A DNA stretch of 64,000 bases from an alpha proteobacterium AAP81b (lineage in GTDB: Bacteria; Pseudomonadota; Alphaproteobacteria; Sphingomonadales; Sphingomonadaceae), in NCBI GenBank assembly GCA_001295935.1, contig LJHX01000036.1, forward strand, positions 1-64,000, read 5' to 3'. The notes beneath the pieces were generated by a model. That model was not told the DNA's origin. It saw only the letters and a list, made by a program, of their open reading frames with translations, and made no database searches. Below are positions 1,818-36,785 of the stretch, one piece after another. Position 1 is the stretch's first letter. Each line of letters opens with the position of its first letter. A program made the position numbers and the translations under genes.

Positions 1818-3861
1818 AGCGACCCTCGTCCTTGAACCGAACGAACGCAGCGGCACCCTCGGCCATCCGCTTCTCCCAGGCGTCGGCCGAGGTGATGGAC
1901 GGCAGGCGACCACGCTCCTTCTTGAACCGAAAAGCGCGAACCGCCAGGTCTTTCGCCTCCTCGGGCGTGATCGCGGTCCGCTTGGCAGCGATGGCGGCGG
2001 CGACCTGCTTCAGGCTGGCCTCGCTCATCGTCTTGGCGAGAATGGCATAGGCTTCACCGAACGGGTTGATGCGGTCGATGAGATCGATGTCGAGCTCACG
2101 GACGTCCATCGCGAACCTGCGTACCCCGTCGACCAGCGCTGTGTTCAGGGCCGGCTCGCCCTCTCCTCCACCAGTTGCAGCCTTCTTGGCTTGCTGGGTC
2201 AGCGTCAGCGCGGCGATAGCATGCTGCCGCACCGCTTCCTGATCTTCAGCGTCAAGCTCGGGGTATCTGTCGCGGATAATCTTGCCGAGCCGGACTTGGG
2301 TTAGCTCCTCAGGGACAAGCTCCTCGTCGAAGAGGCCGCGCTCGATCGATCGCTTGTCCTGGACGAATGTGGCGATCACCTCATTCAGATCCTCTCGGCA
2401 GATGCGGGCCGCCTCTGGGGTCTTCGGTTCGACCAGACCTTTGATCTCAATCTCGAAGACTCCGCGGTCTTCGTTGAAGCCGACGTTGCACCTGTCGGGC
2501 TGATAGCCGCCTTCGCCATAGTCGAACCCTGGGGTCGGCGCATTCGCGGCAGGGTTCTTCGGCTTGAACTCGAAGCGGGGGGCCAGCACCTGCTCCATCA
2601 GGAGGCTGGCGGCGATCGCCTTCAGCGTGTCGTTGACCGCTTCGCGGACTAGCTCGTCGGCGGCATCGACCGCAGCAATCAGGTTGGTGAAGCGGGCGCG
2701 GGTCTTGCCGGGCGCGTCGCGGGTCGCGCGGCCGATGATCTGGACGATCTCCGTAAGGCTGGCGCGATAGCCGACGGTCAGGGCATGCTCGCACCAGATC
2801 CAGTCGAAGCCCTCCTTCGCCATGCCGAGCGCGATGATGATGTCGACGTGATCGCGGTTGTTCTTCTGTGCAGGGTCCTTCAGCGCCATCGACACGCGGT
2901 CGCGCTTGTTGGGGTCGTCGTCGACCAGGTCGGCAATGCGCAGCGTCCGTCCGTCAGGTGTCCGCACCATCTGGAAGCCGGTGACGGGGTCGTGACCCTG
3001 CCATACGCCCAGCGCCTCGATGATGTGCTCGACCTCCTTGATTTTATCTTTGGTGCTCTCACGCGAGTTGACGCTGGGAATGTGGACGATGGTCTTCTCG
3101 GCCGGATCCAGCACCCTCAGGATGTCGTCGGCATAGGCGCCTGAGTAGAAATAGTAACCGATGTCGAGCCGCTTCAGGTGCTCATAGCCATTGAGCTGCT
3201 CATAGTAGGTGTAGGTCACGCTTTCGAACTTGGCCTCATCCCCAGGCGCCAGGACGGCCTCTGCGTCGCCGCGGAAATAGCTGCCGGTCATGGCGACGAT
3301 GTGCACGCGGTCGCGGGCTATGAACGCCCCAAGGTGCGTGCCGAGCTTGTTGTCAGGGTTGGCGGAGACGTGGTGGAACTCGTCGACCGCGATGAGCCGG
3401 TCGTCGAACGCTTCCACGCCAAACTGGTCTACGGCGAAGCGGAAGGTTGCATGGGTGCACACCAGCACCTTATCCTCGCTCGCCAAAAAGGCTCCGAGGC
3501 TGGCGACCTTGCCGCCGTTATCGGTGCCCGGCGCGTTGCAGAGGTTCCATCTGGGCTCGACGCGCCAGTCTGCCCAGAAGCCATGGTCGCTGAGCGGTTC
3601 ATCGTTGAAGCTCGAACCAATGCTCCGCTCGGGCACCACGATGATGGCCTGGCGCAGGCCCTGGTTCTCCAGCTTGTCGAGCGCGATGTACATCAGCGCT
3701 CGGCTCTTGCCTGACGCCGGCGGCGACTTGATCAGCAGGTATTGCTCGCCGCGCTTCTCATAGGCGCGCTCCTGCATCGGCCGCATGCCGAGGGCGTTTG
3801 CCTTGGTCGAGGCACCGCTGCGGGCATAGGACACCGAGACGGAAGGAACGAGCATCGTCAT
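1810..3861 (-). CDS. SF2 DEAD/DEAH-box helicase of a restriction-like operon
   Basis: A protein of 683 aa. Helicase motifs appear in order: Walker A (SPPASGKSRALM, about residue 45), motif II as VDEFHH, motif III as AMTGS, and in RecA domain 2 the sequence MAKEGFDW followed by QIIGRATR (motif VI). This matches type III/type I restriction-helicase architecture without a fused nuclease. The ATG at 3861 is chosen because it overlaps the upstream gene's stop (ATGA); the open frame continues 10 codons further upstream but only inside the neighbouring gene. Inferred role: ATP-driven DNA translocation for the methyltransferase and GIY-YIG proteins encoded on either side. Confidence 0.88.
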   Translation of the reverse strand: MTMLVPSVSVSYARSGASTKANALGMRPMQERAYEKRGEQYLLIKSPPASGKSRALMYIALDKLENQGLRQAIIVVPERSIGSSFNDEPLSDHGFWADWRVEPRWNLCNAPGTDNGGKVASLGAFLASEDKVLVCTHATFRFAVDQFGVEAFDDRLIAVDEFHHVSANPDNKLGTHLGAFIARDRVHIVAMTGSYFRGDAEAVLAPGDEAKFESVTYTYYEQLNGYEHLKRLDIGYYFYSGAYADDILRVLDPAEKTIVHIPSVNSRESTKDKIKEVEHIIEALGVWQGHDPVTGFQMVRTPDGRTLRIADLVDDDPNKRDRVSMALKDPAQKNNRDHVDIIIALGMAKEGFDWIWCEHALTVGYRASLTEIVQIIGRATRDAPGKTRARFTNLIAAVDAADELVREAVNDTLKAIAASLLMEQVLAPRFEFKPKNPAANAPTPGFDYGEGGYQPDRCNVGFNEDRGVFEIEIKGLVEPKTPEAARICREDLNEVIATFVQDKRSIERGLFDEELVPEELTQVRLGKIIRDRYPELDAEDQEAVRQHAIAALTLTQQAKKAATGGGEGEPALNTALVDGVRRFAMDVRELDIDLIDRINPFGEAYAILAKTMSEASLKQVAAAIAAKRTAITPEEAKDLAVRAFRFKKERGRLPSITSADAWEKRMAEGAAAFVRFKDEGRYD

Positions 3862-5018
3862 GCTTTGAGGCTCTCCATGGCCGACTTCCATGCCGCTGCC
3901 ACGGCGGTCTCGCTGGCAAGGAAGAATTCTCCACCAAGCGACGTTTCATGCTGATGGAGGTATGCCTTGAGCTGAGTCTCGGCTCGAATGGCCTCCATCG
4001 ACCTGGGAAACAGTGGCCAGCCGGCCGACGCGTTCGTATGCACAAGTTCCCATCGATAAACGCCGGCAGGGAAGGATGAATTGAGCGCGTCGCATCGTGA
4101 CGATGGGCTGCCGGACATGCCAACCTTGACGATCCAACGCCCCTCTGCCGGCCGCCCGAGGTAGGCGGACTCGTCCCCACGCAAGCGGAGCACATACAGG
4201 CTTTTAGGGCCCTCGGCCTCCTTGCAGAAGAAGCCGGTCTGGGACACCGGCCCGGGGCGAGAGGGAGTGAAGACCTCGCCGCCAGCTGCCGGGACTGCCG
4301 CGGTGACTGGGATCTCACCGAAAACGGACGTCTCGATAAAGGTGAGCCTCAGGAGGTTCCGCGCCTCTCTCTTTGTCAGGCGCATGCCCTGCGAGCCGAT
4401 CGCTTGCGAGCGGGCAGTGGAATAGGTCTCAGGGGCAAACTCTTCGATCGACACATAGCTCTCTTCGGCGACGCGCCAGGCTCGCGTGGCCTTCACGGCC
4501 AAGTTCCACTTCTCGGCACGCTCAGGATCGCCCAATTTGCGTGCCCATTCGGAAGGGCTCATGAACGCCTGGGCGGTGTTGACCCGGTGCGACACCTGCT
4601 GGATGCCGATCACCATGCCACGTTGAGCAAAAGGAGCGCGTGTCTTGTGCCCGTAGATCACGACCAGGGCGCCTGGCTGGGTCTCGCGCACGAAGTGCTT
4701 GCGCTGCCCGTCGTTGGAGAACCCGAGGAAGCCCCACGTTTCGGGTGAGAAGCCGTAGAAGCTGGTTAGCCATACATTGGGCGGGTCGGCCGTGATCTGG
4801 GCTAAGAGCGATTCCGGCTCTGTCGCTGCGTGGGCGGCTAGGAACGCCGCAACAGTCCCATATGTCTCGACTACGCGCAGCCCTACAGCCGGCATCATGG
4901 CCTGGCCTCGCTCTGGCCATCCCTCCGCTTCAAAGAGTCCCTGCAAACCTCCAAAGCGTTCTTGGGCTAAGATGTTGACAGCCTTGGCGTCCCAGCCCGG
5001 GGTCCGGTCTTCAATCAC
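3858..5018 (-). CDS. GIY-YIG-like protein of the restriction-like operon
   Basis: A protein of 386 aa starting at a GTG whose GTGA overlaps the methyltransferase stop. The C-terminal region has a GIY-YIG-like pattern: SLYVLRL, then WIVKVGMSGSPSSRCDALN about 25 residues later, then WELVHTN and a conserved GGEFFLA near the end. Residues 1-230 are a separate domain with WLTSFYGF and GALVVIYGHK. A diverged full-length paralogue lies on the opposite strand at 14820-15974, with the same opening (GWDxKAVNxxA) and the same C-terminal GGEFFLAS. Two GIY-YIG-type proteins in one restriction-like operon is unusual; this one may act as target recogniser or second nuclease subunit. Catalytic activity cannot be judged from the sequence alone. 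Confidence 0.7.
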   Translation of the reverse strand: MIEDRTPGWDAKAVNILAQERFGGLQGLFEAEGWPERGQAMMPAVGLRVVETYGTVAAFLAAHAATEPESLLAQITADPPNVWLTSFYGFSPETWGFLGFSNDGQRKHFVRETQPGALVVIYGHKTRAPFAQRGMVIGIQQVSHRVNTAQAFMSPSEWARKLGDPERAEKWNLAVKATRAWRVAEESYVSIEEFAPETYSTARSQAIGSQGMRLTKREARNLLRLTFIETSVFGEIPVTAAVPAAGGEVFTPSRPGPVSQTGFFCKEAEGPKSLYVLRLRGDESAYLGRPAEGRWIVKVGMSGSPSSRCDALNSSFPAGVYRWELVHTNASAGWPLFPRSMEAIRAETQLKAYLHQHETSLGGEFFLASETAVAAAWKSAMESLKA

Positions 5019-8564: not shown

Positions 8565-8768
8565 ATGGCGATGCTGTCGGAATGGGAATTATGGGCCTGC
8601 GCCCGTCACCAGCTGCTGAAGCATGGCGAGTTGGCCCCTGAGGCTGCGGCCCAGCGGGTGGATGCGCTTCTGGCCGCCGGCGATATCGATGGGCAGAAGG
8701 TTTGGCTGGCGATCCTGGACCGCATCCGCCAGCTCCAGGGTCCGGCGCCGGGCGAGACAGCTCATTGA
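8565..8768 (+). CDS. DUF6961-like small protein
   Basis: A protein of about 67 aa (three in-frame ATGs at 8562, 8565 and 8571 make the exact start uncertain). The sequence SEWELWACARHQLLKHGE followed by AAQRVDALLAAGD matches the small DUF6961 family common in sphingomonads: an ExELWACA helix, a conserved HG, then a DALLAAGD helix. The function of the family is not known to me. Its stop overlaps the start of the next gene (TGATG), so the two are co-translated. Confidence 0.7.
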   Translation: MAMLSEWELWACARHQLLKHGELAPEAAAQRVDALLAAGDIDGQKVWLAILDRIRQLQGPAPGETAH

Positions 8769-9475
8769 TGCCCAAGCTCGACAGACTCGTGGCAGTCCTT
8801 GCGGTTGCGCTCATGGCCCTTGGCCTCCTTGCGCCTGCGTCGGCCGAGACGCTCGCCGGCCGGGTGGTTGGCGTCACCGATGGTGACACCATTCGACTGC
8901 TCGTCGGGGGCAATCGGGAATACAAGGTTCGCCTGGGTGAGATCGATGCGCCGGAAAGCGGCCAGCCCTTTGGCCGTGCTTCCAAGCGCATGCTGTCGGA
9001 CTTGGTGTTCGGCCGGACCGTCACTGTCCGCGTCACCGATGTCGATCGCTACGGCCGATCGGTCGGTGTTATCCGCGCGGGCGATCGCAATATCAACGCC
9101 GAGATGGTCAAGCTGGGCGGTGCCTGGGCCTATCGGCGCTACCTGTCCGACCAGCGCTACCTCGCCTGGGAGCAGGCGGCCCGAGCAGCGCGCCGCGGTC
9201 TTTGGGCCCTGCAGCCTAATCAGATAATGCCGCCCTGGGAGTGGCGCACTGCACGCCGCAGTCGCCTGACGCCTACGCCTTCCCGCTTCTCCGGCCCGGT
9301 CAGTGCACCGCCGATCGATCGCGCCACGGCCGGTGGCGGCTATGCCTGCGGCACCAAGCGGACGTGTGGGCAGATGAGCAGCTGCGACGAGGCGCTCTAT
9401 CACCTAAGGAGCTGCGGCCTTGGCCGTCTCGACGGCGATGGCGACGGGGTGCCCTGCGAGAAGATCTGTCGCTGA
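8768..9475 (+). CDS. exported thermonuclease-like protein with excalibur domain
   Basis: A protein of 235 aa. A signal peptide (ending LLAPASAE) is followed by a staphylococcal-nuclease fold: VVGVTDGDTIRLL, KVRLGEIDAPE, then DRYGRSVG and NAEMVKLGGAWAY. These hold the expected Arg and Glu/Asp active-site positions of the SNase family. After a Pro/Ser-rich linker, the last 45 residues (CGTKRTCGQM through DGDGDGVPCEKIC) form a Cys-paired, Asp-rich excalibur calcium-binding motif. It should act as a Ca-dependent secreted or periplasmic nuclease. The TGATG junction couples it to the DUF6961-like gene. Confidence 0.88.
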   Translation: MPKLDRLVAVLAVALMALGLLAPASAETLAGRVVGVTDGDTIRLLVGGNREYKVRLGEIDAPESGQPFGRASKRMLSDLVFGRTVTVRVTDVDRYGRSVGVIRAGDRNINAEMVKLGGAWAYRRYLSDQRYLAWEQAARAARRGLWALQPNQIMPPWEWRTARRSRLTPTPSRFSGPVSAPPIDRATAGGGYACGTKRTCGQMSSCDEALYHLRSCGLGRLDGDGDGVPCEKICR

Positions 9476-9560
9476 GCCGTGCGGGCAATCACTTCGCCGG
9501 GCTGGCCCTCACCGGGCGGCAGATGCAGGATGCCCGGTGGGTGATGGAGGAGTCGATCTC

Positions 9561-9758
9561 ATGCGCATGACAGCCTTCCTGGTGACGGGCGCCCTACTGG
9601 CGCTCAGTGCCGGACCGACGGTCGCTGCCGAACAGTGCCGTGACGCCAAGGGCAAGTTCATCAAGTGTCCGCCGAAGGGCGCCGCTTCCGGCCAGCGCTG
9701 CAAGGATGCCAAGGGCAAGTTTGCCAAATGCGGGACGCCAGGCGCAAAGCCGGTCTGA
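9561..9758 (+). CDS. small exported protein with two CxDAKGKFxKC repeats
   Basis: A protein of 65 aa. The start is the ATG at 9561, with a GGAGGAG site about 10 nt upstream. A signal peptide (MRMTAFLVTGALLALSAGP) is cleaved after VAA. The mature peptide is basic and contains two near-identical blocks, CRDAKGKFIKCP and CKDAKGKFAKCG, each closed by two cysteines. I know of similar tandem DAKGKFxKC blocks in small periplasmic proteins of unknown role. It follows the thermonuclease gene by 85 bp and may share its transcript. Confidence 0.75.
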   Translation: MRMTAFLVTGALLALSAGPTVAAEQCRDAKGKFIKCPPKGAASGQRCKDAKGKFAKCGTPGAKPV

Positions 9759-9781: not shown

Positions 9782-9958
9782 TCAGGAAAAGAGGCGCTGC
9801 CACCAAGGCCTCTTATCCTCGGGCGGCGGCGGTGACTGTCGAACCTCGGATGCGGATGATTGCTCGCCGGAGTTGGCCGATGCTAGCGGGTCTGCTCCGC
9901 GTCGCAGCCTAACGGCCGCCCGAAGTTCGGCCAGGGCAAGATCGAGCTCATCGCTCAC
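9782..9958 (-). CDS. 58-aa tail gene of the membrane-motor operon
   Basis: Found by reading the minus strand. A GTG at 9958 overlaps the stop of the OmpA/MotB gene (GTGA) and opens 58 codons to a TGA. The peptide begins VSDELDLALAELRAAVRLRR, has a Ser/Pro-rich middle and ends EDKRPWWQRLFS. The helix followed by an amphipathic, Trp-rich C-terminus is the kind of tail that binds membranes or partners. Coupled overlap with the upstream gene and plausible composition support it as a real fifth gene of the operon. No family is recognised. Confidence 0.6.
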   Translation of the reverse strand: MSDELDLALAELRAAVRLRRGADPLASANSGEQSSASEVRQSPPPPEDKRPWWQRLFS

Positions 9959-10878
9959 GGCGCTGCCTTTGCGGCGATCTGGGCGGTTGAACGGCGAAGC
10001 CGGATTTCAATCCTTCGCCGCCGTTGGTCACTTCCTTGGGCCGTGCCGTCCGACAGACGATCGACGGGCACGATCATCTGTGCTCCGGACAGAGGGAGGA
10101 TCCGGGCGCCCGCAAGGCGCTTATCGGCGCGAAGGACGTGGACCACCGAGACGGCACGCGCCATCGCTAAACCGGCATTATCCGTAGAACGCAGGTCCGG
10201 GATGGGGAAGCGACCGGCCGAGGCAGCCACGAGCTGCGCATCCAAGTTGCTCGTGCCTACCATGGGCACTTCATCGGTATGTCCAATGACTTCAATGACG
10301 TCGACGTCATACTCGGCCAAATTGCGTGCAAGCATCGGGATCACCTGAGAAACCAGGTTCCGCTCGAACTCAGGACGCAGGGTCGCCTTTCCGGGGTCGA
10401 AATAGTAGCCGCCGGCTTCACTCAGGCTAACGAACGGCGGCCACTCTCCCTTGCGAGAACGGTTTGCATTGGCGGCCAAGGCTTTCGCATAAGCGCGCGG
10501 GTCAGCAACTCCATCCTTCTCGGCTGCCTGACGGACATCGCGACCGATGGCGGCATCCTCCAAAAGCTGCTTTCGGGCGAGCCCCGTGCCTCCGCGTTCG
10601 ACCTGCCGGCGTGCCTCGATCGCACGAACGAGCTCCTTGAAGAACTCGTCTTGGTTGCGTGCTTGCGGGTACTCCTGCTGCAGCTTCTCGACGAGTCGAC
10701 TTGCGCCACCCCGATCAAGTAGTGCAAGCTGCTGCTGCGTCTTCTCGATGTCTCGATCGCGCTTTTGGAGAGCCGCTGCGAGTGCCATCAGCAGCACAAA
10801 GATCAAAAGAATCATGATCTCGGCGACCGTCAGGCCGAGGACCAAACCGCGCCTGTACTGACGTTCGTTCTGATTCAC
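9955..10878 (-). CDS. MotB/OmpA-family protein (ZorB-like)
   Basis: A protein of 307 aa. One N-terminal membrane helix (about residues 11-37) includes Glu20 in LGLTVAEIMILLIF, at a place where MotB-type stators carry an ion-binding acid. A charged coiled-coil-like linker with DRDIEKTQQQLALL follows. The C-terminal OmpA/MotB peptidoglycan-binding domain has VIEVIGHTDEVPM and ends RRRRIEIRLRR. This is the architecture of MotB, TolR and the Zorya subunit ZorB. It follows the MotA/ExbB-like gene by 8 bp and is GTGA-coupled to the 58-aa tail gene. Inferred: stator half of a cell-wall-anchored, ion-driven membrane complex. Confidence 0.85.
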   Translation of the reverse strand: MNQNERQYRRGLVLGLTVAEIMILLIFVLLMALAAALQKRDRDIEKTQQQLALLDRGGASRLVEKLQQEYPQARNQDEFFKELVRAIEARRQVERGGTGLARKQLLEDAAIGRDVRQAAEKDGVADPRAYAKALAANANRSRKGEWPPFVSLSEAGGYYFDPGKATLRPEFERNLVSQVIPMLARNLAEYDVDVIEVIGHTDEVPMVGTSNLDAQLVAASAGRFPIPDLRSTDNAGLAMARAVSVVHVLRADKRLAGARILPLSGAQMIVPVDRLSDGTAQGSDQRRRRIEIRLRRSTAQIAAKAAP

Positions 10879-10886
10879 CGTCCTGC

Positions 10887-12071
10887 TCAGCGCTGCGAGC
10901 TGCCGACTTGCGCGGTGAGGTCGGTCGTCAATTCTACTAACGCCTTGTGAACCTTAGCGACGTTGTCGCGGGAGCGGCTGACCTCGGCATCTAGGGCAGC
11001 GTTGTGCCGTTGCAAGGCTGCAAGCTCATCGGCACGTGCCTGGGCGAGCGTGTTGAGCACCTCGACGTGGCTGGTAGCATGTTGGTCGATGGTTTGCTCC
11101 CACCGGGTAATCGTTTCCGTCAGCGCCGTGGCCAGGCGCTCACTAACCTTTAAGGGCGCTTTGTTGAGAACGGCGAGGCGGGCCTCAACGACAGCGTCAA
11201 AATCTTGCGCAGCCTTGAGCATCGCGGCGGCAGCGGCACTGATGCTATCGCTTGCACTGGCGAACTTTTCGCCACTGGCTTGGACCGTTTCCTGGTAGCG
11301 GCTCATCGTCTCTGCGGAAGCGGTGATGCGTAATAGTGCGGCGCCTGCAGCGCCGGCTGCTGTCTCGACGCTTCCGAGTGCCTCAGCGTGTGCTGATGTC
11401 CTCCCAGCGATCCCGCCGACCGCCTCAGCATGGCTTTCGAGCGCCTTGACCAGAGACCGAACCGATGAGGAGACCTTTCGCACGTCCTCGACGGTGCTCG
11501 CCGACTGATCGATGACCGCGGTCTTCGCCTGATCCCGCAACTCAGTTAGGTGTTGTTGCGTTTGCAAAGCGAATGTCTGAAACGCAAGTACGACACCGTC
11601 GAGCTCCGCGCGCATGCGAGCAGCCGTATCGGTTAGCGCCAACCTAGCATTTTCCTCGGCCATTGCGAGGTCAGGCTGGCCTTGGCTGAAGAAGACGCGC
11701 AACACCAGCCCGACGACGGTCGATGCTAGCGCCACCCCGAAACCCTGGATGATCGTGGTTGCCGTTTTTGCAGGATCGAAAGTGAAGATAGCGTATGAAA
11801 GGCTGGCAAGCGTGAACACCAGGCCCATATAATAGCAGTTATCGCCGAGCTGATCTGGCCTCAGTTTGAGCCTAGGGCCAAAGTAGACCAGGGCGGCGTA
11901 CCCAGCCATAATGGCGATTGCCATTATAGAAACCAGGATGGCATCTGCCCCTTGCGACTTTGCGGTCACAATTAACAACGATCCGCCTAGAGCGAATAGC
12001 AGAAATGCCCAACGGTCGGTCCATTCGCGCTTAACGAGGCGGTCGATGAAGTCTCGGCGCTGCTCAGCCAT
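10887..12071 (-). CDS. MotA/ExbB-like membrane protein with long coiled-coil tail (ZorA-like)
   Basis: A protein of 394 aa. Four membrane helices lie in residues 20-130; the last, IIQGFGVALASTVVGLVLRV, has the small and Thr-rich pattern of the MotA/ExbB/TolQ channel helix. Residues 140-394 are almost entirely helical heptads (AELDGVVLAFQTFAL and similar), forming a long cytoplasmic tail as in ZorA. The partner OmpA/MotB gene is immediately downstream. Inferred: ion-conducting subunit coupling ion flow to movement of the tail. Because no ZorC, ZorD or ZorE gene is adjacent, I do not call it Zorya. Confidence 0.72.
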   Translation of the reverse strand: MAEQRRDFIDRLVKREWTDRWAFLLFALGGSLLIVTAKSQGADAILVSIMAIAIMAGYAALVYFGPRLKLRPDQLGDNCYYMGLVFTLASLSYAIFTFDPAKTATTIIQGFGVALASTVVGLVLRVFFSQGQPDLAMAEENARLALTDTAARMRAELDGVVLAFQTFALQTQQHLTELRDQAKTAVIDQSASTVEDVRKVSSSVRSLVKALESHAEAVGGIAGRTSAHAEALGSVETAAGAAGAALLRITASAETMSRYQETVQASGEKFASASDSISAAAAAMLKAAQDFDAVVEARLAVLNKAPLKVSERLATALTETITRWEQTIDQHATSHVEVLNTLAQARADELAALQRHNAALDAEVSRSRDNVAKVHKALVELTTDLTAQVGSSQR

Positions 12072-12075
12072 CCCG

Positions 12076-12900
12076 TCACCCGCTCACATTGTAAATTCGC
12101 GTGACAGTCCCGCCTTGCTCGCCGATGGCACGCTCCCAAAGCATGGACAGCGCCCGGGGCTGCGTCTTGGCGGCATCGCCGCGCTGCAGCTGCCAGAGCT
12201 CGACCTCAACCCCGCGGAGGTCAGTACGTCTGCGGCGAAAAGCATCCGACCGGAGGAACACGTCCTCTGAGGGTAGGTCCCGATAGAAACTCAATTCCTG
12301 GGTGTTCTGCAGCAGGTCGGAGGCGATGATCAGCCGCTTAGGGATGCCTTCGCGGCCAGGCTTCTGGAGTTCGGTGAGTGCCGCGGATTGGACCGACTCA
12401 AAGATCGGTGATTGGTCGGCGCCATTAGCCCTGGCCAAGCTGCTGAACGCGCGTTCGAGTGGCGCCGAAAAGCCGTCCGTCCACTGCTTTTGCACCTTGT
12501 CAGGGTTGCCCTTTATCGGGTCGATATCGCGGGCTGTGCCGGGGCTGCAGCGGGTGAGCACCGGGACCAGCAGCCGGTCGCCAATCTGCTCGACCCGTAC
12601 AACCGTCAACTGTCCGTACCGCTTTATGGAGTTCTTGAGCTCTTCCAGCTGGTTGAGAAAATCTTGGCGCTGCGGAAGCGTCATCGGGTCAGTGACGTCG
12701 ACGATCAGGACGTTTACCGATGACGGCACTTCTGGACATAATGTCACAGGGTCAAGAGATCTTAGATCTCGGGAAGCACTAGTATAGAAGTACGCAGCTG
12801 CAGCTACCACTGCGACTGCAAACGCAAACGCTCCTAGACCTTTCCAGAGCTCTCCTTGACGACGCTTGGCTGCTGGGCGCCGACGACGACTTTGTGCCAT
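12076..12900 (-). CDS. membrane-anchored vWA-like protein of the motor operon
   Basis: A protein of 274 aa. An Arg/Lys-rich N-terminus is followed by one membrane helix (about residues 21-41) and a mostly extracytoplasmic domain. That domain begins SVNVLIVDVTDPMTLPQRQD, which resembles the first strand and metal-site loop of von Willebrand A folds, and contains RLIIASDLLQNTQELSF, like the second metal-site segment. The acidic loop is not a canonical DxSxS, so metal binding is uncertain. Its start overlaps the preceding gene's stop (TAATG) and it ends 4 bp before the MotA-like gene. A sensing or scaffold role in the complex is inferred. Confidence 0.65.
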   Translation of the reverse strand: MAQSRRRRPAAKRRQGELWKGLGAFAFAVAVVAAAAYFYTSASRDLRSLDPVTLCPEVPSSVNVLIVDVTDPMTLPQRQDFLNQLEELKNSIKRYGQLTVVRVEQIGDRLLVPVLTRCSPGTARDIDPIKGNPDKVQKQWTDGFSAPLERAFSSLARANGADQSPIFESVQSAALTELQKPGREGIPKRLIIASDLLQNTQELSFYRDLPSEDVFLRSDAFRRRRTDLRGVEVELWQLQRGDAAKTQPRALSMLWERAIGEQGGTVTRIYNVSG

Positions 12901-14294
12901 TATGCAAGCCTTGTTTTGAGAGCCTCAAGGGTTTCAAAACCCCGTACGCCCTCCAGGTATGCATCGGATACGGCGCGCTGTGCACTCGCCAGCTTAATGT
13001 CCAGCCTTTCTACGTCATTGGCGGAAAGCGCGGCCTGGGGCGCCAACGGGATGTGTGGCGAGGGTAGGTTGAAATCTTCTTCAAAACGGGCCGGCGCAGA
13101 TGGGTCGCGCGCGGCGCGGTTGGCATCCCTGTAGATCGCAAGCAGCTGGCGACCCGCCTGTTCAAGCTGGGCATGGTACTGTTCTAGCTTATGGGCGAAC
13201 GCCACTCGGCTATTTATGGCCCGACTCTGGTCGGCGAGTTGCTGTGCCAATCCCTTCCGCAGGCCATCGAACGTCCCGCTCGCCTGTTCATGGAACTCCT
13301 TCAGCTCGGAGCCCACCTCTTCCAAGGCCCCAGCATAGTCTTCGCAGCGTTGCTCATGCTCCCGCCAGACTTGGCCGTAACCAGGACAGGGATCGTCCAT
13401 GTTGTAGGCGGTCCGGCCTGCGACCACGGCGCAGAGGGCGCCTAGAATCAGCAAGCCCCACGAGTAGATGCTAGCCGGCAAAGCCCCCATCATGGTCAGG
13501 GCGACCGCCTCGGGGTTCTGCAGGCCAGCTACCTTCGCATCGCGATAATGCGCCGCGAGCAGGTTCCAGCACACAACGAAAAGAAGCCAGACTACTAGAC
13601 CTAGCAGGGCTGCGTAGCGCCCGGCCTGGGAACGAGACTGTAGCTTCGGTAGCACCAACCTGCCGACTGAAACCGCAGCCAACACATTCACAAAGCCGAT
13701 TGCCGCGGCGGCAAAAATGCCGCCAATCAGGCCCAGGTCGTCATTCTTCTGCAGGAGCACGGAGTTAGCGGCCGTTTCGGCGATCCATGCCAAGGCGATG
13801 AGAGCGTAGGAAAGCACCGGCAGTGGCGTGAGCTTGGCTGGTCGCTGCAAGCCATTTTCCTTCTGGAAGGCGCGCAACCGGGCATAGCTCTGGGTCACAG
13901 CATCACGATCCGTTGTAAGCCGCACACTCGCCTGAGCGACGGTCGACTTGATCTCGGTCTCCGCTTGGATTGCTGCCATCTCCAGCGCCGGCAGCTCGGT
14001 TAGAACCGCGTTGTTGGCGATGCGCTGGTCGCATGCCTGGAACCAGCGAGCAGCCTCGCTCGTCGCCTCCTGCCAAGCGCGGCTGACCCGGCTGACTATC
14101 TCTTCCTCTACCGCGTCCCTCGCTCGGGTATCTGGAGCGGGTATCCCCTGTGCCCCGTTCTCGGCACCCCGTTCCTCGAGCCGCAATTCCTGGGCGACGC
14201 CAGCAACATCGAAATGCAAGAAGGGCTTGTCGAGGGAGGCCTCAAAGGACGACGCCCCCTCGAATAGCTTTTTCCACGATTGGCCAATCCCCAT
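12900..14294 (-). CDS. four-helix membrane protein with coiled coil, first gene of the motor operon
   Basis: A protein of 464 aa. An in-frame TAA six codons upstream fixes the start at ATG 14294. The soluble N-terminal 155 residues are helical. Four membrane helices follow between about residues 160 and 300 (SYALIALAWIAETAANSVL; GGIFAAAAIGFVNVLAAVS; LLGLVVWLLFVVCWNLLAA; YSWGLLILGALCAVVAG). The C-terminal 130 residues are a heptad-rich coil with ALEEVGSELKEFHEQ. I know no named family. Its position at the head of a five-gene, near-gapless operon makes it a likely core membrane subunit. Confidence 0.7.
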   Translation of the reverse strand: MGIGQSWKKLFEGASSFEASLDKPFLHFDVAGVAQELRLEERGAENGAQGIPAPDTRARDAVEEEIVSRVSRAWQEATSEAARWFQACDQRIANNAVLTELPALEMAAIQAETEIKSTVAQASVRLTTDRDAVTQSYARLRAFQKENGLQRPAKLTPLPVLSYALIALAWIAETAANSVLLQKNDDLGLIGGIFAAAAIGFVNVLAAVSVGRLVLPKLQSRSQAGRYAALLGLVVWLLFVVCWNLLAAHYRDAKVAGLQNPEAVALTMMGALPASIYSWGLLILGALCAVVAGRTAYNMDDPCPGYGQVWREHEQRCEDYAGALEEVGSELKEFHEQASGTFDGLRKGLAQQLADQSRAINSRVAFAHKLEQYHAQLEQAGRQLLAIYRDANRAARDPSAPARFEEDFNLPSPHIPLAPQAALSANDVERLDIKLASAQRAVSDAYLEGVRGFETLEALKTRLA

Positions 14295-14819: not shown

Positions 14820-15974
14820 TTGGTCATCAGGCGACACAAGGGTTGGGACAAGCAGGCGGTCAACACGATTGCCGCTCGCGACTATGGCGGGCTGGAAGGG
14901 CTGTTTGCCGCACATGGTTGGACGCTGCCCAAAGGCCGGACCTATGGGCAGGTGGCGCCTACGCTGGTCACCGATGCCTATGGCAGCATCGCCGCGTTCG
15001 AGGCCGAGCATCCGGCGGCGTTTCCCGATCCGGTGACGGTGATCGAGGCGGACGACCCCGATGTGTGGCTGGGTAGCTTCTTCGGCTTTGTCGTGTCCGA
15101 CAAATGGGGCATGATCGGATTCACCCGGCCGGCGGACCGCGACAAGATACGGTCGCAGAGCAGGCCGGGGGCGCTGTATGTCGCCTATGGCGTCGGCCGG
15201 AGCGAAAACCCCGCCGAGCGGATGCGGGTGCTGGGCATGGTGCAGCTAAGCCATGTCATCGGCACCAAACACCAGTTCCTGCATCCAAGCCTGCTGACGC
15301 CCGCGACCATCGACCGTTGGTATCACGGGTTGAAAGTGGTGCGCGCTTGGTCGGTGCCTGCCGACCTGCGGCCCGACATTCGGGACTTCGCGCCAGAGAT
15401 CGACCTGCCGCGCCGGGCGCGCGAGATCGGCGTTCGCGGCATCCGTCTGCCCCGGGACGCGGCGCGGCGACTGCTGGCGCTCGATATGATCGAAGTCCCG
15501 GTCTATGGTGGTCCGCCCGTTGCCGCTCCGATGCTCGCGCCGGGTGCGGTGGCTCTGCGGCCAAGCAAGGCCGGGCCGATCGCCCAGACTGGCTTCTGGA
15601 CCGAACCCGCGACCGGGCCGAAACACCTCTACATGCTGCGATTGAACGGCAACCTCGGGCATTTCGTGCCAGGCCACGACTGGCGACGCAAGGTGCTGGT
15701 GAAGGTCGGGATTTCGATCAGTCCGGCGATGCGCTGCGCCAGCTTCAACTCCGCCTTGCCCGCGACCGCCTTCAACTGGGAATTGTGGAAGACGACGCAC
15801 GGCGCCGCCGGCCCGTTCGATCCGCCGCATCGCGCTAAGTTGGGCGAGGATGCAATGAAGACCGAGCTGGCGGTGGACGGGGAGCCGCTGGGTGGCGAGT
15901 TTTTCCTGGCCAGCGACGTCGCCTGCGAACGGGCCTGGCGCCACGGTTGCGATATCGCCACGGCCGCGGAATGA
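14820..15974 (+). CDS. solitary GIY-YIG-like protein, paralogue of the one at 3858-5018
   Basis: A protein of 384 aa starting at a TTG with AAGGGGA about 8 nt upstream. It aligns by eye along its whole length with the operon protein at 3858-5018: GWDKQAVNTIA versus GWDAKAVNILA, DPDVWLGSFFGF versus PPNVWLTSFYGF, the GIY-YIG-like pair HLYMLRL and VLVKVGIS, and the end LGGEFFLASD. Spacing of the motifs is nearly the same, so this is a diverged whole-gene copy, not a fragment. No methyltransferase or helicase accompanies it. It may be a stand-alone nuclease or the remnant of a second restriction-like operon. Confidence 0.68.
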   Translation: MVIRRHKGWDKQAVNTIAARDYGGLEGLFAAHGWTLPKGRTYGQVAPTLVTDAYGSIAAFEAEHPAAFPDPVTVIEADDPDVWLGSFFGFVVSDKWGMIGFTRPADRDKIRSQSRPGALYVAYGVGRSENPAERMRVLGMVQLSHVIGTKHQFLHPSLLTPATIDRWYHGLKVVRAWSVPADLRPDIRDFAPEIDLPRRAREIGVRGIRLPRDAARRLLALDMIEVPVYGGPPVAAPMLAPGAVALRPSKAGPIAQTGFWTEPATGPKHLYMLRLNGNLGHFVPGHDWRRKVLVKVGISISPAMRCASFNSALPATAFNWELWKTTHGAAGPFDPPHRAKLGEDAMKTELAVDGEPLGGEFFLASDVACERAWRHGCDIATAAE

Positions 15975-16578
15975 AAGGGGACCATGCAGGAACTGTCAAA
16001 GTTGCACTGTGCAAGCCCGCCGCGACCGCAGGCCTGTGGTCAAACGGACACTCGCTGACAGCGTCTTTGGGGCCGGTTACAAAATGGCTAATAAGACTCG
16101 GTCCGCAGAATGGAGGCATCTTCTGGCAGTGGTCGGCTGTCCGGGGTGCGCCCATATGCGTCCGCAGCCGCTTAGCCGCTTGCTGGCCATACCTGGGAGG
16201 AGGGCGGCCTGGCCGCTTTAAGGCGCCGAGGCTGCGTAAGCGGCCGTCCGTTTAGACGGCGCCGGCGGTCATCTACGCGCCCCAATCTCGGTAATTCGAC
16301 GGAGCCGTTGCCAATCTTGAAAGCAGACGTTCGCTCTCACCGGACTGTTAGGAATGATTGGGGGACTTCGGCCCGGCTGCTGTCGGGCAGGAGGTTGCCC
16401 TCACCTGCCTTTCGTTCATGTAGCCGGTGGATGCATAGTTGCGTCGCGCCAGGACAGGCGTGCTTTGCGTGATATCTGGAATACCGCATTGTTGCTCCTT
16501 ATGATCTAAGGGCACCCCGGCCGTCGGTGGTGAGCAGCATGCTATCGCAATCAACCGACGGAGAACGTAAAGAAGGCG
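15975..16578. other. intergenic stretch, no gene seen
   Basis: About 600 bp. Apart from a palindrome copy at its left end I see no frame with a believable start, protein-like composition or family match, and no clear RNA structure. Confidence 0.4.
16001..16015. repeat. CTTGCAC palindrome, short variant
   Basis: GTTGCACTGTGCAAG, 27 bp after the stop of the GIY-YIG-like paralogue; the first base breaks the outermost pair. Confidence 0.7.
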
Positions 16579-19500
16579 TTGCGGGAATCAGTAGGTTGCA
16601 ACGTGCTCCAGGGAGAAAAGCTCGACAATAGTCTACTTCCATCCTCGCGTCTGGTCCGAGGCGGGAAGGCGAGCATCCCGATAACGACGCGGCTAGCGAT
16701 CGAGATCCCGAAACCCAAAGACTGGCAAGCGTTTCAGCGAAACTGCGTGCTGCTATTTCGCGCGGAGCTGAACGATCCCCATGCGCAGGAGTATGGCCGC
16801 GCCGGGCAGAAGCAGGGCGGCATCGACGTCCTTGCCCGGCGCGATGGACGGGACGACCACTTCGTCGGGGTGCAGTGTCGGCTGATCACCAAGCCGATCA
16901 AGGAGGCCAAGATCCTGTCCGACGCCCGCGAAGCGCTGAAGCTCAAGGCGGGATTGAAGGAGCTCATCTTCGCAACCACGGCGCCAGACGACACCTCCGC
17001 GTCCGACGCCGCCATTGCCGTCACCCGGAAACTGAAGGCGGAGGGGCACGACCTGACGGTCGTTGTCTACGGATGGGGGCAGCTTCAGACGCTCATCGCG
17101 CCCCATGAGGTGGCGTACAACGCCTTCCATCCGTCTGCCGTGGCCAGCTCCGTGATTCAGAGCATGGGACCAGCCGCAGGCCCCTCGGACTTCGCGACGC
17201 TCGTCGCGGCCCAGGTCGTAAAGCAGATGCGCGGCACTGGCCTGACGGCCGAGCCGCGTGACGGCGCCGCCAGCGCCGATGAGGATCCGGCGCTCCACGC
17301 CCGCATCGATACGTTCCGCGACCTTTTCAAAGAGCAAGGCGAGCCGCTGCTCGCCGAGAAGGGCTTGCTGACGATCTTAGGCAAGGAAGACCTGTCGGCA
17401 AAGCCATGGGCACTCTACCGCGTCGAGACGAACCTCGCCTCGATCGCGATGGACCTCGGGCGCGAGGCGGAGGCGGCCATTCGCTTCGAGGCCGCGTACC
17501 TAGTGCGTCCTGAAGACCCCAATGCGCTGGCGAATCTAGCTTTGGCCCGCACGATTCAGGGCCGGTTCGAGGAGGCGATGACTGCGGCGCAAAGCGCCCT
17601 CAACGGTACTCCGCGTGCCGACCACGCAGTGGGCTACCTCCTCCAGGCGGCCGCCCGATCCGACTGGCAGGGAGACCCCGAGTCTCTCATCCCGCCTGAC
17701 CTCGCGGGGTCGGCGCAGGCGGACATCGGCATGGCGGAGTTCCTGCGCCGCCGAGACGTGCCGGGCTGGGCCGAGCGCAGCCTTGAGTTGGCGCGCCGCC
17801 ATGCCGAATTGCCGGAGTTCAAGCGCGTTCGCGCCATCGCCGTTCTGTCGTTGGCGGTCGAGTCTGGAGCGATCATCCCGGGCGGTCATGGTCCGGTGAC
17901 CAGCGCCGAGCTGAACTCAGCGGCGGACGACATGAAGGCCTTGGTCGAGCATTACCTAGAAGTAGGTTTCGCTGATGCCCACGACCTAGTGGTCCATCTC
18001 AACAACGCCGCCGTTTTGCTTCGGCTATGCGAGCGGCACGGCGAGAGTGAAGCGCTCCTCATTCGCGGGATGCCGAGGGTTGGCGACCAACCGCAGCTTC
18101 GGCGCCTTTTGGCCTTGGCGCGCTCAGTTCAGGATCGGGATGAAGAGGCCATTGCCGCGCTCGACGGCGACACCGATCCAGAAAACCAGATCTTGCGGGC
18201 CGAGCTGAGAGCCTCCGCCGGCGACGCGGCCGACGCCATGGCGGATGCGCTTGCAATCAAACCCGATGCTCTGCCGGAGCGGCTACAACGGTTGCGTTGG
18301 CGGATCATCGGTGAGTGCGCTTTGCGCCAAGAGGATCGGGCCGGCCTCGATGCTGCAGTGGCAGGCATGCGCGCCATCGACCCTCAAGACATCAGCGCGA
18401 ACCTGCTGGAGATTCGGGGCGAGCGAAAAACGGTGGCGGACGAAGAGACCGCCCGAAAACGGTTGCGAGCGCTCGCCGCATCTGTTCCGGCCAATCTCGA
18501 TATGATCTCGCGCTACTTTTTGGCTGTGGAGCTGCGGAATCAGGATTTGCCGGAGGAGGCGTCGAGGCTTCTCGAAGGGCACGTTGATCTGACCCGGCCG
18601 AGTCCATCGACGTCCTTGTTCCTACAGAGCCTCGCCGGGGCACGTCGTGACGCGGCGTTCCGGGAGGCCTTGGCTGCAGCGGCGCCAGAAGTGCGCAACG
18701 ATCCTGCGACGCTCTGGACGGTTGCGGCTCATGCGTGGAACCTGGGCGACCTTGTCGCCGCGATGGCCGCCGTGGACACCTTGCTGGCCCAGGAGCCCGA
18801 CCAGCCGCGGGCCCGACTGCTGAAGATTGAGATCCTCGTTCGGCAGGACCGGTCCGTCGAGCTCTTCTCGGAGTTGGAGAAGCCGCTCGAGCGTTTGCCG
18901 TGGGAGCGACCGAGTGACCAGTTCCGCTTGGCGTCGCTGCTCGGGCACTTCGGTTTCGCTGAGCGCGCCGCCGATTTCGCCTACCGGCTGTTCCTGCAGC
19001 ATCGCGATACGTCTCGGGCTTGGATGACGCTGTCGATGCTCGTTCTGGACGAGGGCCGAGGTCAGGAGGACAAACCGCGGCGGTGGAACACCTCTGCTGT
19101 CGGTCCAAACGCAGCGGTGGATCTGGCATACGACGACGGCGCGGAGCTCTTCTTCGTTATCGAGCCCGACGCCGCCTTGCGTAAGTTCGATCCCGAGTCT
19201 TGGGAACCGGATCACGCGCTGGTGCGGTCCGTGACGGGGCTCCAAGCGGGCGAGCGCTTCGTCGGCCCCGATGGGCGTGAAGGTGCCGTTCGCCAAGTCA
19301 GGCACAAGTACGTCGCCCGGCTCCACTACGTCATGGAGCACCACGAGACGCGCTTCCCTGAGATGACAGGCTTTAGGCGCGTCTCGGTCGATGTTGAAAA
19401 GCCGGGCGGGCTTGACGGTCTGATCGCACAGATAAAGGCGCGACGCGACTGGATCGAGGAAGAGGAAAGTCAGTACCTGAACGGCCCGATGCCGCTCGGC

Positions 19501-20565
19501 GTCCTTGCACACCGGGTCGGCATGGACACGATCGAGGTGGCGGGCGGACTTGCCGGGCATGGTGTAAAGCTCAAGGTCGCGGTTGGCAGCCTTGATGAGC
19601 GAGAGGTCGCGAGTCGAGCGGTCCGGGAGAACGCGCGGCGCGGTTGTGTGCTCGACCTCCTGGCGTTCTGGACCGCGTGGCGGCTTGAAGCGCTCGACGC
19701 CGTGCGCGCGACGTGCGGTCCGATCCAACTGCCACAAAGCGTACTGGACCGGCTCCGCGCACGGCGTGAGCAGTTCGAGTTCTCGGCGAGCGACGGCCAC
19801 AAGAGCGCTGGCTACGAGAACGGCCGGATCGTGTTGCACGAGGTCTCGGCGGAGGTGGTCGCGGGACTGCGCGACGAGATCGACGGCGCCATCGCCTGGG
19901 CGGAGGACAACGCGACCGTGTTGCCGGTTGTGGCAAGCGACGATCTACCCGAGGGCCTGCGCGAGCACCTGCGCCTCGGTCGATCCGACATCTTCGACGG
20001 GCTCATCCTAGCCCGCCAATCTAGAACGCTGCTCGTCACGGACGACCTGCCGACGCGGGAGGTCGACCGCGTTATGGGCGGCAGCGGCGGCGCCTGGCTG
20101 CACGTTGTTTTCGGCGTCGCCGTGGACTGGAAGGCCATCAATTTCGACAAGTACGTGCGCTGGTCGGCGCACTTGGTCGACGCGGGACATAACTACCTGG
20201 GCGTATCGGGCGCGGTATTGGCCCAAGCGGCGCGTCTCGACGCGGCCGCCGGCGAGGCTCCTGGCTATCTGTTCCGGACCTTAAGCAATATGATCGGTGG
20301 GCGCTCTGCCGAGCCGATCTCGCACTTGCAGGCAGCCGTCGGCTGCCTGCGCGAGCTGTGGGACGATCACCGAACCGTTCGCTTCCGCCAGCCTGTGACC
20401 GGGCATTTGCTGCGCCAGCTCGTTCGTGAACGAACTCAAGATTACCCGATTATCTTGCGAACCATTCTGGCGTGGTCGCAAAGCACATTCGGACTGCCGG
20501 ACTATGTGCGCGGTTGGCTGCAGGGCCACTTCTTGCTGCACGCCGTGTTCAAACAGCGGCGGTGA
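16579..20565 (+). CDS. giant nuclease-TPR-PIN-like protein
   Basis: A protein of 1328 aa. The N-terminal 170 residues look like a restriction-endonuclease (Mrr-like) fold: GQKQGGIDVLARRDG followed by FVGVQCR gives the D-x(n)-QxK/R arrangement. From about residue 250 to 850 there are helical TPR-like repeats, for example NALANLALARTIQGRFEEAM. The C-terminal part (about 1015-1180) resembles the PIN-like domains found at the end of TPR proteins, with VLDLLAFWTAWRLE, DIFDGLILARQSR and LLVTDDLPTRE. So two nuclease-type domains flank a long scaffold. The start is a TTG with AGAAGG upstream and could be further in. No partner gene is adjacent; a defence role is inferred from the neighbourhood. Confidence 0.72.
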   Translation: MRESVGCNVLQGEKLDNSLLPSSRLVRGGKASIPITTRLAIEIPKPKDWQAFQRNCVLLFRAELNDPHAQEYGRAGQKQGGIDVLARRDGRDDHFVGVQCRLITKPIKEAKILSDAREALKLKAGLKELIFATTAPDDTSASDAAIAVTRKLKAEGHDLTVVVYGWGQLQTLIAPHEVAYNAFHPSAVASSVIQSMGPAAGPSDFATLVAAQVVKQMRGTGLTAEPRDGAASADEDPALHARIDTFRDLFKEQGEPLLAEKGLLTILGKEDLSAKPWALYRVETNLASIAMDLGREAEAAIRFEAAYLVRPEDPNALANLALARTIQGRFEEAMTAAQSALNGTPRADHAVGYLLQAAARSDWQGDPESLIPPDLAGSAQADIGMAEFLRRRDVPGWAERSLELARRHAELPEFKRVRAIAVLSLAVESGAIIPGGHGPVTSAELNSAADDMKALVEHYLEVGFADAHDLVVHLNNAAVLLRLCERHGESEALLIRGMPRVGDQPQLRRLLALARSVQDRDEEAIAALDGDTDPENQILRAELRASAGDAADAMADALAIKPDALPERLQRLRWRIIGECALRQEDRAGLDAAVAGMRAIDPQDISANLLEIRGERKTVADEETARKRLRALAASVPANLDMISRYFLAVELRNQDLPEEASRLLEGHVDLTRPSPSTSLFLQSLAGARRDAAFREALAAAAPEVRNDPATLWTVAAHAWNLGDLVAAMAAVDTLLAQEPDQPRARLLKIEILVRQDRSVELFSELEKPLERLPWERPSDQFRLASLLGHFGFAERAADFAYRLFLQHRDTSRAWMTLSMLVLDEGRGQEDKPRRWNTSAVGPNAAVDLAYDDGAELFFVIEPDAALRKFDPESWEPDHALVRSVTGLQAGERFVGPDGREGAVRQVRHKYVARLHYVMEHHETRFPEMTGFRRVSVDVEKPGGLDGLIAQIKARRDWIEEEESQYLNGPMPLGVLAHRVGMDTIEVAGGLAGHGVKLKVAVGSLDEREVASRAVRENARRGCVLDLLAFWTAWRLEALDAVRATCGPIQLPQSVLDRLRARREQFEFSASDGHKSAGYENGRIVLHEVSAEVVAGLRDEIDGAIAWAEDNATVLPVVASDDLPEGLREHLRLGRSDIFDGLILARQSRTLLVTDDLPTREVDRVMGGSGGAWLHVVFGVAVDWKAINFDKYVRWSAHLVDAGHNYLGVSGAVLAQAARLDAAAGEAPGYLFRTLSNMIGGRSAEPISHLQAAVGCLRELWDDHRTVRFRQPVTGHLLRQLVRERTQDYPIILRTILAWSQSTFGLPDYVRGWLQGHFLLHAVFKQRR

Positions 20566-36691: not shown

Positions 36692-36785
36692 TGGTAGCCC
36701 TGCCCGGATTCGAACCGGGATCGCGCGGTAATCTGCCGCTCACAGCGTTTATAAAACGCTCGCTCTACCGTTGAGCTACAGGGCC
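36692..36785 (-). tRNA. class II-like tRNA with anticodon UAU and encoded CCA
   Basis: The minus strand folds as a tRNA of 94 nt including CCA. Acceptor: GGCCCTG pairs with CAGGGCT (one G-U). D arm: GCTC/GAGC. Anticodon arm: AGCGT-TTTATAA-ACGCT, giving anticodon TAT at 36751-36753. T arm: CCCGG-TTCGAAT-CCGGG, then A73 and an encoded CCA. Between the anticodon and T arms is a long variable arm with its own stem (GCGG/CCGC), as in Leu, Ser or Tyr tRNAs. A UAU anticodon would read AUA (Ile) and is rare in bacteria, especially with a long variable arm. The charged amino acid is uncertain. Confidence 0.8.

Follow-up and report, generated by a model that had tools for sequence, protein, structure and literature searches.

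A probable Zorya-like motor operon with a recurrent nuclease partner, a candidate defence system of Alphaproteobacteria

The closest described relatives of the operon reported here are the Zorya defence systems, in which ZorA and ZorB are accompanied by ZorC and ZorD (type I), ZorE (type II) or ZorF and ZorG (type III; given in part of PMC8565338). According to parts of PMC11890865, ZorAB forms a 5:2 complex like those of ion-driven motors. Its function depends on the ZorA tail, on a flow of ions and on attachment to peptidoglycan, and it draws its nuclease from the cytoplasm. The ZorE nuclease is described as acting inside the cell and as harming host DNA too. In a portion of PMC12505986, ZorAB is a remote homologue placed outside the trees. 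A membrane nuclease, SNIPE (DUF4041 and GIY-YIG), cuts phage DNA in the cytoplasm during injection, as described in part of PMC13190303. Here, we analysed a 64,000-nucleotide stretch (the window) of contig LJHX01000036.1 from the alphaproteobacterium AAP81b (Sphingomonadaceae). It contains an operon of five minus-strand genes, A to E, that appears to encode a motor of this kind.

The list of open reading frames (ORFs) places the five genes exactly where the initial annotation had them (Table 1). A and B overlap by 1 bp, B and C are separated by 4 bp, C and D are separated by 8 bp, and D and E overlap by 4 bp. We propose that A to D encode a stator that is Zorya-like, driven by ions and anchored to the wall, and that it works with a periplasmic nuclease which can be exchanged. 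Its target would probably be phage or other incoming DNA. The probability of this reading is put at roughly 0.55.

Like Zorya, the operon has a MotA-like subunit with a long tail, a MotB-like subunit with a membrane carboxylate and an OmpA domain, a nuclease partner and defence-rich surroundings. It differs in that the vWA protein B and the membrane protein A are added as regular partners, the membrane carboxylate is Glu, and matches to ZorA and ZorB models are weak. The nuclease also differs, being of the SNase or the GmrSD-type HNH kind, predicted to be periplasmic and sometimes fused to D. In agreement with the initial annotation, none of the five proteins gave a PADLOC match to ZorC, ZorD, ZorE, ZorF or ZorG with E values as high as 1 allowed. 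Thus, the operon is not a member of Zorya as defined. It is probably built, and probably works, like Zorya. The general ion-driven stator architecture is shared with TolQR, ExbBD and MotAB, to all of which the C structure aligns, whereas the operon has vWA, A and a nuclease, and no TolA, TonB or flagellar partner was seen in the annotated regions opened. SNIPE is similar as a membrane-placed nuclease that cuts DNA at entry, and it differs in being a single protein with a cytoplasmic nuclease (as far as described in PMC13190303), whereas the nuclease of the operon is predicted to be periplasmic and is tied to a motor. The partner enzyme itself is a member of the secreted SNase (thermonuclease) family, from which it is set apart by recurrent linkage or fusion to a stator-type subunit. 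No description of a vWA, MotAB-like and SNase combination was found among the open-licence PMC papers listed, a scope that does not extend to preprints.

The survey of gene order suggested with the initial annotation showed that A-B-C-D recurs in the same order across Alphaproteobacteria, at approximately 20-74% identity to the window. This recurrence in fixed order indicates that the operon is more than a chance arrangement. A total of 103 C-D loci (labelled L) in 50 sequence clusters (80% identity of the C head) were collected, with plasmid and whole-genome loci pooled and ORFs picked by a simple codon-composition rule rather than by a gene finder. The D profile gave 80 genome loci, these being the best 80 of 153 confirmed relatives, and a scan of viral-labelled contigs through B gave two loci. 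Within L010-L100, a duplicate (L042), a locus whose overlong D ORF fails the spacing rule (L059) and a locus with no D (L082) are outside the 103. The identical pairs L016/L126 and L049/L100 are both counted, and L169, which was fetched later, is not. A and B are both found beside C-D in 98 of the 103 loci. The other five, without A or B, are L022 and L034, where the contigs end, and L024, L028 and L079. In plasmids, A is next to B in all 24 records, and C and D follow in all nine regions that were opened. Peptides similar to E lie directly 3' of D in 12 loci, judged by eye (the window, L019-L027, L099 and, more weakly, L121).

The product of C appears to be the motor subunit. Its AF2 model (mean predicted local distance difference test score, pLDDT, 77.1) has four membrane-length helices followed by a long helical tail. 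The tail varies in length among relatives, and its cytoplasmic side is only predicted. The first-ranked Foldseek match is chain 8vvi_C of the type II ZorAB complex, with a probability of 1.00 but an E of 0.12. The VIA matches include ZorA, TolQ, ExbB, PomA and MotA entries, alongside which other helical bundles, designed ones included, reach the same Z. ZorA (8qyy_A) has Z 9.8, TolQ 8.7, PomA 8.5 and ExbB 8.2, and an unrelated designed bundle also reaches 9.8. By sequence, C matches PADLOC ZorA2 at E 1.5e-4, and its profile matches the MotA/TolQ/ExbB-labelled chain 8vvn_C in the PDB at E 0.025. Membership of C in the MotA/TolQ/ZorA class is well supported by the modelled core. That C is a ZorA in particular is likely, though not proved. 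The initial annotation had called C MotA/ExbB-like and had named a different predicted fold as the finding that would count against it; the model and the structural matches bear the MotA/ExbB-like description out. Matches of C to DUF1216, fibrinogen and tape-measure proteins, and of its profile to apolipoprotein and coronavirus spike entries in the PDB, were set aside as apparent coiled-coil noise.

The product of D has one hydrophobic region by Kyte-Doolittle analysis. All of its library matches are weak and include Pfam OmpA (E 5.5e-5, below the cut-off), PADLOC ZorB1 (E 2.1e-5) and MotB-type models of NCBIfam (below the cut-off). The OmpA part of the D protein of L149 matches 8vvi_A, the MotB-like subunit of the type II ZorAB complex, at E 9e-13, versus 5e-3 for MotB. 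Glu20 of D lies within the membrane helix and was invariant in the first alignment. A membrane Glu is present in 102 of the 103 D proteins (100 by motif scan, L024 and L079 by eye), and L028 has Asp. D can thus be assigned from its sequence to a putative ZorB type, with one membrane helix bearing a carboxylate and an OmpA domain predicted to bind peptidoglycan. This agrees with the earlier proposal of a MotB/OmpA protein with Glu20. Together, the fold of C and the OmpA/ZorB similarity of D are consistent with the motor-type complex that had been suggested.

Some D proteins depart from this pattern. L028 (8166-10516) encodes a hybrid, in which an OmpA domain 65% identical to that of the window over residues 140-304 is carried on a different, Asp-bearing membrane segment (EWISIADLMTG...). 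Its neighbours, judged by eye, are an AAA ATPase gene and the gene of a protein closer to canonical MotA/ZorA. We regard this hybrid as a domain exchange with another stator system. The D proteins of L116 (11507-12400), L121 (11563-12573) and L123 (11658-12815) keep the membrane helix and have no OmpA match; another C-terminal region (CW...CRF) replaces the OmpA domain.

B had been described as a membrane-anchored vWA-like protein, and this is supported. One hydrophobic region was found by Kyte-Doolittle analysis, and the AF2 model (mean pLDDT 90.9) has an N-terminal helix followed by an alpha/beta domain. The top Foldseek and VIA matches of the model are vWA domains, the best of which has Z 13.2 and a root-mean-square deviation of 2.7 over 160 residues (4fx5). 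The model thus supports a vWA (Rossmann-like) fold for B. A profile of B gave no meaningful match in the PDB. The canonical motif of the metal ion-dependent adhesion site (MIDAS) is DxSxS. This motif is absent from B, which has D68-x-T-D71-P in its place; the remaining positions of the altered, MIDAS-like site are S164-P165 and S194-D195 in the alignment. Cys55 and Cys118 are invariant. The four-helix membrane protein claimed for A is consistent with four hydrophobic regions in the same Kyte-Doolittle analysis. A has no noteworthy match in Pfam, PADLOC, NCBIfam or PHROGs. No match was found between the profiles of A and C (hhalign probability about 1%).

The initial annotation held that the operon replaces nuclease effectors with a vWA protein and another membrane protein. 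This did not stand, as the operon recurrently has a nuclease partner, which in five of the fetched loci forms part of D itself. It was correct in the kind of effector that it took from Zorya, a nuclease, and not in the place. The nuclease gene of the window lies just outside the span that it covered, and its product is predicted to be periplasmic, unlike the cytoplasmic ZorE. This gene encodes an SNase domain and an Excalibur domain (Pfam E 9e-24 and 5.8e-7; ORF 8702-9475), and its 3' end and that of E are approximately 307 bp apart. Its Arg, Asp, Glu and Arg residues align with the active site of Staphylococcus aureus thermonuclease, and we take these to be the catalytic residues of SNase. 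The product is thus assigned by sequence to the SNase family, with the active-site residues apparently kept. A convergent SNase-Excalibur layout like that of the window is also found in L091, L092 and L147, which are among the nearer matches of the window SNase.

The strongest evidence for the nuclease link is fusion to D. By Pfam, an OmpA domain is followed by SNase in D proteins of L150 (SNase at residues 474-576), L122 (372-473), L119 (548-650) and L129 (419-522), with OmpA below the cut-off in L122 and just below it in L129. The L122 fusion gave nothing in a phmmer search of the PDB at E 1e-3. In L149, OmpA is followed by GmrSD_C (residues 481-581), an HNH-type nuclease domain. Because the fused nuclease comes after the membrane helix and the OmpA domain, it would lie on the periplasmic side if the topology of D is MotB/ZorB-like. 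An N-terminal hydrophobic segment was found in 32 of 36 adjacent SNase ORFs, which suggests that these SNases are usually secreted or membrane-anchored and predicts a periplasmic placement for them as well.

Across the relatives, SNase is fused to D or lies within 2 kb in 39 of the 103 loci, and in 32 of the 86 loci whose flanks reach 2 kb or more in both directions. By cluster, the figures are 26 of 50 and, with full flanks, 22 of 40. This any-member rule is generous, as the large Rhizobium-type cluster of L010 is counted on 2 of its 34 members. Of the eight plasmid regions with annotation, six (L010, L011, L014, L015, L017 and L018) list a 'thermonuclease family protein' close to the operon, and the Paracoccus regions L012 and L013 do not; the gene tables of all eight are incomplete. 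Relatives from Sphingomonadales and Caulobacterales commonly have the order A-B-C-D-E-SNase on a single strand. Across the loci, the SNase can be upstream, downstream on the same or the opposite strand, or fused to D, and these varied positions point to repeated association with the operon. In L014, an annotated DUF4041 protein (16428-17903), carrying a domain of the SNIPE defence nuclease, adjoins the SNase. In L024 (7645-9074), C-D-E-SNase is found without A and B, directly after phage prohead protease- and portal-like genes (by eye), so that this operon was perhaps interrupted by, or is part of, a prophage.

The fairest sample for this linkage is that of C-D loci from genome draws, where SNase is present in 12 of 16 loci with the window included and 11 of 15 without it. 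The 12 comprise the four SNase fusions (L119, L122, L129 and L150), seven loci with a separate SNase no more than 2 kb away (the window, L116, L130, L146, L147, L148 and L169) and L121, which has a fragment only. There is no SNase within 2 kb in L123, L124 and L126, and L149 has the fused HNH domain instead. The count does not include L128, where the contig ends after C, or G897, or G945, which lies in the same place as G809 and has a near-identical score. A+B loci without detected C-D (L117, L118, L120, L125 and L131-L135), L127 (B only) and the weak matches G117, G854 and G1029 were also left out. Counted with Pfam PF00565, background SNases number 59 in 190.6 Mb from the organism's own family and 106 in 224.8 Mb from a different one. 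At 0.31 and 0.47 SNase per Mb, approximately 0.0015-0.0022 (about 0.2%) are expected per locus. The nominal P for 11 of 15 is then below 1e-26, with loci treated as independent though the genomes are related. The same SNase model, which was seeded with seven operon-adjacent SNases, including that of the window, and iterated on fetched loci, found one SNase ORF in 18 random control regions of 19.9 kb (L153, on the contig of the L148 locus). At this rate of 1.3% per locus, 11 of 15 gives a P near 1e-18, again with independent loci.

The distribution of the operon is patchy and accessory. B is carried by 8 of the 296 genomes sampled in the order, by 15 of 385 in the class and by 3 of 248 in another family. 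In the phylum, it was found in 13 of 398 genomes, two of the 13 being weak and outside the class. D is present in 1 of 24 genus genomes, two weak partial matches aside. The initial annotation had named consistent location in housekeeping loci as a point against it. Homologues are not consistently located in this way, although 32 loci, mostly of Rhizobium, share common flank genes and look vertically inherited. These 32 are either counted loci or syntenic ones, with L059 among them and outside the 103, and none has an SNase within 2 kb.

The initial annotation had placed the operon in a nuclease-rich island, and a defence-rich setting is borne out by the flanks. At a threshold of E 1e-10, 115 PADLOC families match among 137 flank proteins from 14 loci, the window included, versus seven among 135 control proteins. 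The latter were taken by seeded shuffle from the 285 ORFs of 18 control regions, which came from 11 genomes, ten of them also represented among the flanks. When the window, L122, L123, L129 and L148-L150 are removed, the remaining 80 proteins still match 64 families. The 25 of the 115 families that are listed include type II and IIG restriction-modification, Cas10/Csm3, TerY with STK_OB and PP2C, AbiEii, AriA, GajA, Old and HerA, and ZorC-ZorG are not among these 25. The Cas10 and Csm3 matches vanish once L123 and the six other loci are left out. In L123 (12815-19028), the operon adjoins type III CRISPR-like genes, judged by eye. The window's own flank has an MmeI-like restriction-modification gene.

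A mechanism can be proposed, though only tentatively and less firmly than the Zorya-like reading as a whole. The products of A, B, C and D would form an inner-membrane stator, Zorya-like and ion-driven, whose stoichiometry and ion flow are presumed to be Zorya-like too. C would take the part of ZorA or MotA, with its tail in the cytoplasm, and D would be the ZorB/MotB-like subunit, anchored to peptidoglycan and with its carboxylate at Glu20. The vWA domain of B may act in the periplasm as an adaptor or a sensor, and A may provide a helical-armed scaffold in the membrane. On the periplasmic side, a nuclease would be the effector, mostly a separate secreted or membrane-anchored SNase and sometimes an SNase or HNH domain at the end of D. 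A disturbance of the wall or membrane, such as the passage of a phage tail, could be sensed by B and by the link between D and peptidoglycan. This would switch the motor, and the nuclease would be brought or unlocked onto phage or plasmid DNA crossing the periplasm. The recruitment of a nuclease by ZorAB in Zorya and the cutting at injection by SNIPE led us to propose such a motor-gated nuclease guarding the periplasm. Incoming DNA would be cut there with the cell's own chromosome unexposed. Self and non-self would be told apart by place, not sequence, and the SNase/HNH slot would be exchangeable.

Several findings weigh against a Zorya-like stator with a periplasmic nuclease. The match of C is to a small helical bundle, and its Z is not above that of unrelated helical proteins. 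The topology of D, B and SNase is a prediction only. There is no SNase within 2 kb in 64 of the 103 loci, including the Rhizobium-type loci that share flanks; these loci may rely on a nuclease encoded far away, or on none at all. An SNase of the window's type is also carried, at 64-66% identity, by two of the 23 other genomes of the genus, and D is missing from both. The pairing in the window could therefore be incidental, unlike the association across genomes. The PADLOC family counts overstate the number of proteins, since several models often match one protein, and ordinary metabolism genes are next to several loci.

An unlikely alternative is a Tol/Ton-type envelope-maintenance motor for the upkeep of the wall or outer membrane, whose SNase clears or recycles periplasmic DNA. 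The syntenic Rhizobium-type group without SNase would fit such a role, as would the resemblance of C to TolQ and ExbB and the PBP1A gene beside the L010 locus. Membrane-anchored SH3b-like proteins, possibly another wall-binding partner, also adjoin the operon, judged by eye, at L015:15052-15810 (where the annotation agrees) and L071:5467-6171. The patchy spread (15 of 385 class genomes for B and 1 of 24 genus genomes for D, weak partial matches aside) and the defence-rich flanks argue against it. None of TolA, TolB and Pal appears in the incomplete gene tables of the eight plasmid regions with annotation; the Tistrella record is unannotated. Flagellar or Tol/Ton housekeeping is ranked lower.

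Less likely again is a Zorya-like machine that acts by ion leak and depolarisation or by wall damage, as abortive infection, with the SNase only helping by later degradation of phage or cell DNA. The conserved membrane carboxylate of D would suit an ion leak, and the 64 loci without a nearby SNase suggest that the core may act alone. The direct fusion of nucleases to D in five loci speaks against this, and the tested effector of Zorya II is itself a nuclease, the nickase ZorE (reported in part of PMC11890865).

Least likely is a device for DNA traffic, such as surface exclusion against conjugation, DNA uptake or the use of environmental DNA, rather than an anti-phage system: 24 plasmid records carry A+B, of which 11 are typed conjugative, and distant A+B pairs without detected C-D lie beside VirD4/TraG-like ATPases (Table 1), but the flanks carry anti-phage families, and the sole conjugation gene noticed in the eight annotated regions (with incomplete tables and no systematic search) was traA, at the edge of L010 and approximately 9 kb away.

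Table 1. Positions of the operon genes, their neighbours in the window and distant A+B pairs in other loci
Feature	Position	Strand	Description
Gene A	12900..14294	-	464 amino acids (aa); membrane protein; helical regions around approximately four predicted membrane helices; no known family
Gene B	12076..12900	-	274 aa; one N-terminal membrane helix and vWA fold (predicted)
Gene C	10887..12071	-	394 aa; MotA/TolQ/ExbB/ZorA-like membrane core (approximately residues 36-137) and long helical tail (predicted)
Gene D	9955..10878	-	307 aa; MotB/ZorB-like; one predicted membrane helix with Glu20; OmpA domain at approximately 159-293
Gene E	9782..9958	-	58-aa peptide (DELDLALAELRAAV ... WWQRLFS)
SNase (thermonuclease) and Excalibur gene	8768..9475	+	signal peptide; convergent with the operon; candidate effector
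Small Cys/Lys-rich secreted-looking peptide	9561..9758	+	65 aa; between SNase and E; within ORF 9420-9758
Distant A+B pairs beside VirD4/TraG-like ATPases	L120:4940-7773, L133:7680-10293, L134:7431-10321		by eye; site-specific recombinases further along

Other features of the window were also recorded. The 65-aa peptide ORF between the SNase gene and E has no Pfam match. A TPR protein of 1328 aa is encoded at 16579-20565 on the plus strand; its PIN domain is of the TPR-GreABC-PIN type (Pfam PF20698). Two genes that look alike by eye lie on either side of the operon region and in opposite orientations, at 3858-5018 (minus strand, 386 aa) and 14820-15974 (plus strand, 384 aa). These are possibly the boundaries of an insertion. 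The only tRNA found in the window is a tRNA-Ile (tat) at 36692-36785 on the minus strand.

If the Zorya-like reading is true, these Alphaproteobacteria would possess a relative of Zorya with its nuclease outside the inner membrane. It would become testable which mechanical cue a defence machine of the stator type responds to, and whether a triggered DNase guards the bacterial periplasm. Even if the defence role fails, a four-gene motor with a nuclease partner, scattered in Alphaproteobacteria, needs a function.

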